Origin: Polyangiaceae bacterium
Lineage (GTDB): Bacteria > Myxococcota_A > Polyangia > Polyangiales > Polyangiaceae
Length of the DNA stretch: 64,000 nt
Direction of reading: 5' to 3'
NCBI GenBank assembly: GCA_019637265.1
Contig: JAHBVY010000002.1
Span: 496,001 to 560,000, forward strand
Below are positions 28,675 through 30,138 of this stretch, piece after piece. Position 1 is the stretch's first letter. Each line of letters starts with the position of its first letter. The translations under genes were made by a program, and so were the position numbers. Under the pieces are notes generated by a model. The model saw nothing but the letters and a program-made list of their open reading frames with translations, had not been told where the DNA came from and searched no databases.

Positions 28675-28768
28675 GCACCACGCCTCAGGTAGGGGCAGCC
28701 CCCCGTGGCTGCCCTTCACTAGCGCACCACGCCTCAGGTAGGGGCAGCCCCCCGTGGCTGCCCTTCAC
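28675..28768 (+). repeat. Duplicated 45-bp hairpin element
   Basis: Two identical 45-base copies (28675-28719 and 28724-28768, period 49). Each contains GGGCAGCC-CCCCGT-GGCTGCCC, an 8-bp perfect stem. The loop CCCCGT recurs in a third hairpin at 31356-31375, which argues for a REP-like element family rather than a simple terminator. Confidence 0.85.
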
Positions 28769-28843: not shown

Positions 28844-29311
28844 ATGGCAAGCTACCTGATCGAGGCGGGGATCACGCTGCTCGCCGTGGTGGCGCTGGCG
28901 GTGGTGGTGCTGTACGCCGCGAGGCGCGCGGGCATCGGGCGCGCTGGGGGTCCGCTCGAGCTCACGGGGCGGCTGCCCCTCGACGCGCGCCGCGCGATCT
29001 ACTTGGTGCGGATCGGGAGCAAGACCTTGGTGGTCGGCGCGAGCGAAGCCGGGCTCACCCGGCTCGGTGAGCTCGACAACAGCGAGCTACCCGCGCCCCC
29101 ACCGGCGCGCCCCGATCCGTTCGCCGCCGTGCTGGCGCGCGCGCTGGGCCGCGCACCGCGGGACGCGCAGGGTGATGAGCGCGACGAGGCGCGGAGCGAC
29201 GACGCGCGGAGCGATGAGCCTGACGTGAACAGCGACGACGCGCGGAGCGATGAGCCGCGTGGCGATGAGCCTTCAAGCGACAAGCCACCGAGCAAAGAGG
29301 CCAACCCATGA
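28844..29311 (+). CDS. FliO-like export apparatus assembly protein
   Basis: A 155-residue protein. One N-terminal helix (AGITLLAVVALAVVVLYAA) is followed by the FliO-family core LELTGRLPLDARRAIYLVRIG then SKTLVVGASEAGLTRLGEL, the small beta domain placed near FliP. The C-terminal 60 residues are a hydrophilic Asp/Ser/Glu repeat tail (RSDDARSDEPDVNSDD). FliO helps stabilise FliP during assembly of flagellar and type III export gates. It overlaps the next gene by ATGA, so the two are a coupled pair. Confidence 0.82.
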   Translation: MASYLIEAGITLLAVVALAVVVLYAARRAGIGRAGGPLELTGRLPLDARRAIYLVRIGSKTLVVGASEAGLTRLGELDNSELPAPPPARPDPFAAVLARALGRAPRDAQGDERDEARSDDARSDEPDVNSDDARSDEPRGDEPSSDKPPSKEANP

Positions 29312-30063
29312 CGCGAGCGCTCACGCTCCTGACCGCGGTGGGCCTCACCCTCGTGCCCGCGCTCGCTCAGGCTCAGCAGCAGAACCCCGCCACCACGGAC
29401 GATCTGCTCACGCGCCCGATCGCCCTGGTGGTGGCGCTGGCGCTGGTGGCGATCCTCCCGTTCGCGTTCATGACCGTGACCGCCTTCGTGAAGATCTCCA
29501 CGGTGCTGCAGATCGTGCGCGGCGCGATCGGCGCTCAGGGCGTGCCGTCGAACACCGTGGTGATGGCTTTGGCAGCTGCACTGACGATGCTCGCGATGGC
29601 GCCGGTGGGGACGCGCATCGCCGAGCGCGCGGAGCCGCTGTGGGAGGGCGAGGCGGTGAAGGACACCCCCGTGCTGGTGGCGGGGCTATTCAAGGCAACC
29701 GTCGAGCCGATCCGCGACTTCTTGAAGGCCAACGCTTCGGAGCGAGAGCGGCAGCGCTTCTTCGAGCTCGCGCGCGCGGCGCGCCCCGAGGCCGAGCGCG
29801 ATCAGGTGGGGCGCGATGACCTGGTGGTGTTGATCCCGAGCTTCATGGTGACCGAGCTGCTCGAGGCCTTCGCCTTGGGCTTCGCGATCTACCTACCGCT
29901 CTTGGTGATCGATCTGGTGGTGGGGAACGTGCTGCTCGCCCTGGGCATGCAGATGATGAACCCCACCCAAGTCAGCCTCCCCTTCAAGCTGCTGCTGTTC
30001 GTCGCGGTCGACGGCTGGGGCCTCTTGGCGCAAGCGCTGGTGACCGGCTACGTGACGAGCTAG
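29308..30063 (+). CDS. Type III secretion/flagellar export gate protein (SctR/FliP family)
   Basis: A 251-residue membrane protein with an N-terminal signal (ends PALAQAQ) and the family core: LPFAFMTVTAFVKISTVLQI, VRGAIGAQGVPSNTVVMALA, the periplasmic loop, then LIPSFMVTELLEAFALGFAI, YLPLLVIDLVVGNVLLALGM and the final LPFKLLLFVAVDGWGLL. SctR/FliP forms the pentameric start of the export gate. AFVKIS and the lack of flagellar neighbours look more SctR-like. No SctS, SctT, SctU or SctV gene is in the window: a hairpin follows directly and the next gene is an unrelated operon on the other strand. Confidence 0.9.
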   Translation: MTRALTLLTAVGLTLVPALAQAQQQNPATTDDLLTRPIALVVALALVAILPFAFMTVTAFVKISTVLQIVRGAIGAQGVPSNTVVMALAAALTMLAMAPVGTRIAERAEPLWEGEAVKDTPVLVAGLFKATVEPIRDFLKANASERERQRFFELARAARPEAERDQVGRDDLVVLIPSFMVTELLEAFALGFAIYLPLLVIDLVVGNVLLALGMQMMNPTQVSLPFKLLLFVAVDGWGLLAQALVTGYVTS

Positions 30064-30108: not shown

Positions 30109-30138
30109 CGTAGGGGCGCAGCATGCTGCGCCCCTACG
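30109..30138. terminator. Perfect 30-bp palindrome between convergent genes
   Basis: CGTAGGGGCGCAGCA followed directly by its exact reverse complement. It separates SctR (+) from the Gld-type operon end (-) and could act as a bidirectional terminator, but the perfect symmetry with a GCATGC centre is also typical of REP-like elements. Confidence 0.85.

Follow-up and report, generated by a model that had tools for sequence, protein, structure and literature searches.

The type III core genes of this Polyangiaceae genome are single-copy and dispersed: Only fliO and sctR are still coupled. This pair is very probably the nucleus of a non-flagellar type III gate, which it would form with SctS, SctT, SctU, SctV, SctJ, SctQ and SctN, all encoded by single genes at other sites, after an ancestral operon was broken up. 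The pair is found in the window, by which we mean the whole stretch of 64,000 nucleotides we have analyzed (contig C12, positions 496001-560000). The genome to which it belongs has 5.7 Mb in 21 contigs and is 98.5% complete.

The fliO-sctR Pair

The first gene (28844..29311, + strand) codes for a FliO homologue of 155 amino acids, an export-gate assembly factor. It reaches 46.2 bits against Pfam PF04347, whose cut-off is 22. A single N-terminal membrane helix is followed by the FliO domain, which is conserved, and by an acidic tail, which is variable; the helix and the L-P-L-x-x-R-R core are kept in an alignment of 19 FliO homologues. The protein thus has both the N-terminal membrane helix and the PF04347 domain which define FliO, and its gene adjoins sctR.

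The second gene (29308..30063, + strand) codes for SctR, the export-gate core subunit of the FliP/YscR family, with 251 amino acids. Pfam PF00813 gives 194.9 bits. Among the NCBIfam equivalogs, the SctR model TIGR01102 gives 209.5 bits, marginally above its cut-off of 208.6, and the FliP model TIGR01103 only 166.1 bits, under its cut-off of 217.45. The N-terminus resembles a signal peptide, and the TAFVKI and PTQVSLPFKLLLF motifs are intact. The sequence and the list of open reading frames place the stop codon of fliO and the start codon of sctR in an ATGA overlap (29308..29311, + strand), which is likely to couple the translation of both genes. In a comparison with the nearest relative (L046), SctR has an omega of 0.14 and FliO one of 0.47, about 0.5: SctR is constrained by purifying selection and FliO is fast-evolving.

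A divergent aspartate kinase gene (lysC) is located 5' of the pair. On the 3' side there is a palindrome, and beyond it, on the other strand, are DUF4340-like, GldG-like, ABC permease and ABC ATPase genes, which we have named by reading their sequences; these ABC/Gld-type genes are therefore convergent with sctR. The original prediction had described a coupled FliO-SctR pair, isolated from other export genes and followed by a 30-bp palindrome and an unrelated operon, and all of this agrees with our results. Genome-wide family searches and reading of the flanks reveal no export genes near fliO-sctR besides the pair itself, and no complete type III or flagellar locus lies directly outside the window. 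Since only two export genes are visible inside the window, they might be the end of a clustered locus, lost to the window edge or to misassembly. The probability of this is negligible: The pair is central both in the window and in its contig (897 kb), its flanks lack export genes, and the equal dispersal found in two closed genomes, described below, already refutes it.

The perfect 30-bp palindrome CGTAGGGGCGCAGCA|TGCTGCGCCCCTACG (30109..30138, no strand assigned), placed between the convergent genes, is possibly a terminator. It is a member of a REP-like family whose hairpins start with GTAGGGGC and are spread over the whole genome, with at least four core variants; 14 elements were counted in 333 kb. 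Two identical 45-nt copies in the gap between lysC and fliO (28675-28719 and 28724-28768) contain one GTAGGGGC hairpin each (28689-28714 and 28738-28763); these repeat copies are not part of the export system. In this genome, 5/8 type III genes have a GTAGGGGC hairpin at a distance of 150 bp or less (hypergeometric p 7e-5, a value to be read with caution, as the pattern was derived from the fliO-sctR locus itself and the counts are non-independent). In the relatives such hairpins accompany 1/85 type III genes (p 0.32), and the elements are few overall. Because hairpins are found near type III genes here and not in the relatives, we do not count the palindrome in the export system. A signal specific to the pair is rejected: The palindrome is one member of a REP-like family with no association in relatives. 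A search for sigma-70-like promoters found none.

Other Type III Genes in the Genome

The pair had been described as lacking the other parts of an export apparatus. This is not the case: The search which had been suggested for sctS, sctT, sctU and sctV finds each of them once, dispersed over the genome, and SctJ, SctN and SctQ are also encoded at other loci. According to a profile search, sctR (C12:525437) is the sole FliP-family gene of the genome. The same contig carries SctU (C12:65504) and the ATPase SctN (C12:648179). Contig C1 carries SctS (C1:732589), SctV (C1:926452-928296), the ring lipoprotein SctJ (C1:1118678) and SctT (C1:1528054), and the sorting-platform protein SctQ is found in C2:72526. 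All of these are single-copy genes. The five gate proteins SctR, SctS, SctT, SctU and SctV are thus encoded once each, above Pfam cut-offs, and they are accompanied by SctJ, SctN and SctQ, as in the systems called Myxo or T3SS*. The eight loci are separated from their neighbours by at least 120 kb or lie in separate contigs; the closest two are about 122 kb apart.

SctU has an intact NPTH motif (VVVVNPTH), SctN keeps its Walker A motif (AGSGVGKST), and SctJ is a short protein (265 aa) with a lipobox. Unrelated genes surround each locus: For example, SctV is preceded by a FIST protein and SctU by an M48 peptidase, and a DnaJ-like gene is found near SctN. At the type III loci which we have read, no secretin, needle or translocon gene was noticed beside them.

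Distribution in Related Genomes

We have searched for FliP-family proteins in 59 genomes, this one and its relatives, taking only full-length matches. Their scores form two groups: about 235-263 bits for flagellar proteins and about 156-215 bits for the SctR type described here. For co-occurrence we chose 27 Polyangiales genomes, 19 with this SctR type and eight without it. SctN and SctJ of non-flagellar type are found in 19/19 SctR carriers and in 0/8 of the others. Non-flagellar SctV is present in 18/19 carriers and SctU in 17/19, both in 0/8 of the other genomes, four of which have only flagellar versions and four neither type. These types were sorted by scores and positions and the genomes share kinship, hence the counts carry no strict p-value. 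There are exceptions: No non-flagellar SctV or SctU was found in G024, which is 92% complete, no recognisable SctU in G012, and no SctQ in G003 or G012. In G008 we have also observed a second FHIPEP-family frame, N-terminally short (C108:21673-22923), besides the full SctV in C52.

Since co-occurrence with SctR is strict for SctJ and SctN and near-strict for SctV, SctU and SctQ, a common machine is predicted. FliO and SctR alone, or with some of the gate proteins, might also have been put to a new use as a simpler inner-membrane pore: The pair is the sole coupled unit left, in 27/33 loci, and a FliO-SctR fusion exists. This is highly improbable, as non-flagellar SctR never appears without SctN and SctJ in the set of genomes. 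A new use of the gate had been proposed, but there is no need to assume one for the pair by itself. Another of the proposals, that the pair serves a remote system, is supported by the single-copy genes for SctS, SctT, SctU, SctV, SctJ, SctN and SctQ elsewhere in the genome and by the co-occurrence of SctV, SctJ, SctN, SctQ and SctU with SctR.

Two closed genomes show the same scattering. In G021 (a single contig of 12.2 Mb) the genes are found at 1.07 (SctR), 4.24 (SctU), 4.50 (SctV), 4.76 (SctJ), 8.14 (SctN) and 11.10 Mb (SctQ). In G048 (a single contig of 10.3 Mb) the order is SctU 1.96, SctJ 5.48, SctV 5.80, SctR 7.98, SctQ 9.10 and SctN 9.78 Mb. The closed genomes cover these six genes, and the dispersal of SctS and SctT is taken from our genome. 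Clustered loci with conserved gene order, of the Cystobacterineae type, are absent from this genome and from the closed ones. An assembly artefact as the cause of the scattering is rejected, the dispersal in both closed genomes being equal. We have also observed that SctV and SctJ are about 150-320 kb apart in five genomes (G000, the genome studied here, G011, G021, G022 and G048), as if slowly drifting.

Synteny in relatives, another of the suggested checks, shows that neighbours are conserved locus by locus. Around SctR, FliO is kept in 27/33 related loci, lysC in 16/33 and the ABC operon in 14/33; upstream FliO was not detected in G048, G038, G224, G050 and G043. PP2C and ddl genes are each found near SctV in 5/10 loci, and DnaJ near SctN in 6/10. 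As the closed genomes are alike and the local neighbours are conserved, the dispersal is ancestral to much of the order, and related soil bacteria have maintained this arrangement.

Phylogenetic Position and Origin

In a tree of 46 SctR sequences, the non-flagellar clade is separated from flagella by a split with 100/100 support. In the SctN and SctV trees, too, the proteins of Polyangiales fall among non-flagellar systems and are separate from flagellar ones. All these trees used a small set of injectisome references, and M. xanthus is not present by name in the SctR tree. The Myxococcota SctR proteins form one group, with a support of 84/82, under the starred level, and are placed beside secretin-bearing systems of Sinorhizobium, Mycetohabitans and L059 (98/95). 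Abby and Rocha have described an early Myxo branch (PMC3459982), with which this placement is consistent. The type III genes of L059, which is an uncultured freshwater bacterium, are clustered and include one for a secretin-like protein of 608 aa; we have detected no FliO next to SctR in this cluster.

We have considered whether the dispersed genes might build a flagellum, as FliO is typical of flagella and some relatives have flagellar clusters. This is extremely improbable. Family searches find no flagellar-type FliF, FlhA, FliP or FliM/FliN in the genome: Its YscJ/FliF, FHIPEP, FliP and FliMN matches are single and all of non-flagellar type. SctJ is short and has a lipobox, and the SctR, SctN and SctV trees exclude the flagellar clade. 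A flagellar origin of the dispersed set is therefore rejected, by the trees and by the lack of flagellar-type proteins.

Polyangiaceae are usually described as non-flagellated. We have observed clusters of flagellar-type FliF, FliI, FliP, FlhB and FlhA in several Polyangiaceae (G004, G006, G013, G030 and others, for example the loci L060, L091 and L140), and some genomes of this family contain both flagellar and scattered non-flagellar sets.

A relic had been considered in the original prediction, and the isolation of the pair and the high omega of FliO might suggest that a flagellum or a type III locus was lost and that the pair is decaying. We find this highly improbable: The key motifs are intact, the omega of SctR is low, all other gate genes are present once with open frames, and the position of the pair, including the association of FliO with SctR in most related loci, is kept across genera. 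Furthermore, the affinity of SctR is to non-flagellar systems and not to the flagella which some relatives also have.

The preferred reading, a gate whose genes were dispersed from an operon, is consistent with gene orders found in the phylum. Among the loci of our phylum search, the order fliO-R-S-T-U is intact in L238, L239, L241, L242 and L244; it is seen in the family f25, which we take to be Bradymonadia, and in G097, another Polyangia lineage. In G273 the set is partly broken, and in G193 and G167 only fliO-R is left. G134 has a natural FliO-SctR fusion (L240:8577-9686), one frame of 370 aa followed by SctS, SctT and SctU. As FliO is present in operons, in fliO-R pairs and in the fusion, we consider it a part of this non-flagellar lineage. 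The presence of FliO in non-flagellar systems of Myxococcota has already been reported for M. xanthus (PMC12403147). The fliO-R-S-T-U set was also observed close to rho-like and prfA-like genes in L236 (G154) and in L238 and L239 (two f25 genomes), a neighbourhood which may be the ancestral site of the operon.

Proposed Function

By analogy with known systems, FliO would help SctR to fold and oligomerise in the inner membrane, acting as its chaperone: In Salmonella, FliO stabilises FliP and aids the formation of the FliP-FliR core (PMC5542435). SctR would then nucleate a SctRST complex, joined by SctU and SctV, with the SctJ ring, SctQ and the SctN ATPase, so that all dispersed components would assemble into one machine. 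The dispersed set would be the Polyangiales version of the Myxo/T3SS* lineage of Myxococcota, in which the ancestral fliO-sctR-S-T-U operon has presumably been disrupted, leaving fliO and sctR as the only genes still coupled.

The T3SS* of Myxococcus xanthus, which has neither needle nor secretin, lyses prey together with a Tad-like pilus (PMC12075869). There is about an even chance that the machine described here likewise exports proteins for contact-dependent predation. A more speculative idea, which we consider rather doubtful, is that a complete type III machine has its genes placed singly among housekeeping operons throughout the order, free of operon control, and is a resident inner-membrane exporter and not an inducible weapon.

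A survey of 17 myxobacterial genomes found type III genes mainly in Myxococcales, where they are degenerate (PMC10196010). Our results add a full type III core set in Polyangiales, which is easy to miss and has apparently been overlooked because its genes are unclustered. We have found no published description of dispersed type III genes in Polyangiales in a literature search which was thin on subscription journals. The places to look for contact-predation machinery change as a result. The graded series from operon to partly broken operon, fusion and pair alone illustrates how the genes of a multi-protein complex are retained once they no longer form an operon. Our results also support the view that FliO has long belonged to this non-flagellar lineage.

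Comparison with Known Systems

A close comparison is with the two M. xanthus systems, T3SS* (mxan_2434-2464) and T3SS(2) (mxan_5643-5654), which are also non-flagellar gates of Myxococcota, a predatory phylum. A FliO homologue is reported in both (PMC12403147), as is the case here. However, according to the published descriptions which we have compared, each M. xanthus system occupies one clustered locus (PMC12075869, PMC10196010), while here all genes are single except fliO-sctR. The Myxo family of non-flagellar type III systems (Abby and Rocha 2012, PMC3459982) likewise branches next to systems with a secretin, separately from flagella, as in our SctR tree. It was published from Cystobacterineae only, with a clustered and conserved gene order (PMC3459982), whereas the Polyangiales sets are dispersed. 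With respect to the needle-less T3SS* of Bradymonadia (PMC11509652), our presumed representative, f25, has a related SctR, which is preceded by FliO. Unlike Polyangiales, f25 retains the fliO-R-S-T-U operon.

Chlamydiales carry a secretin. Their working type III system is likewise split over several loci (PMC3459982), but the degree of dispersal is different: In Chlamydiales the genes occupy four or more loci, of which three contain core genes (PMC3459982), while here the loci are single genes.
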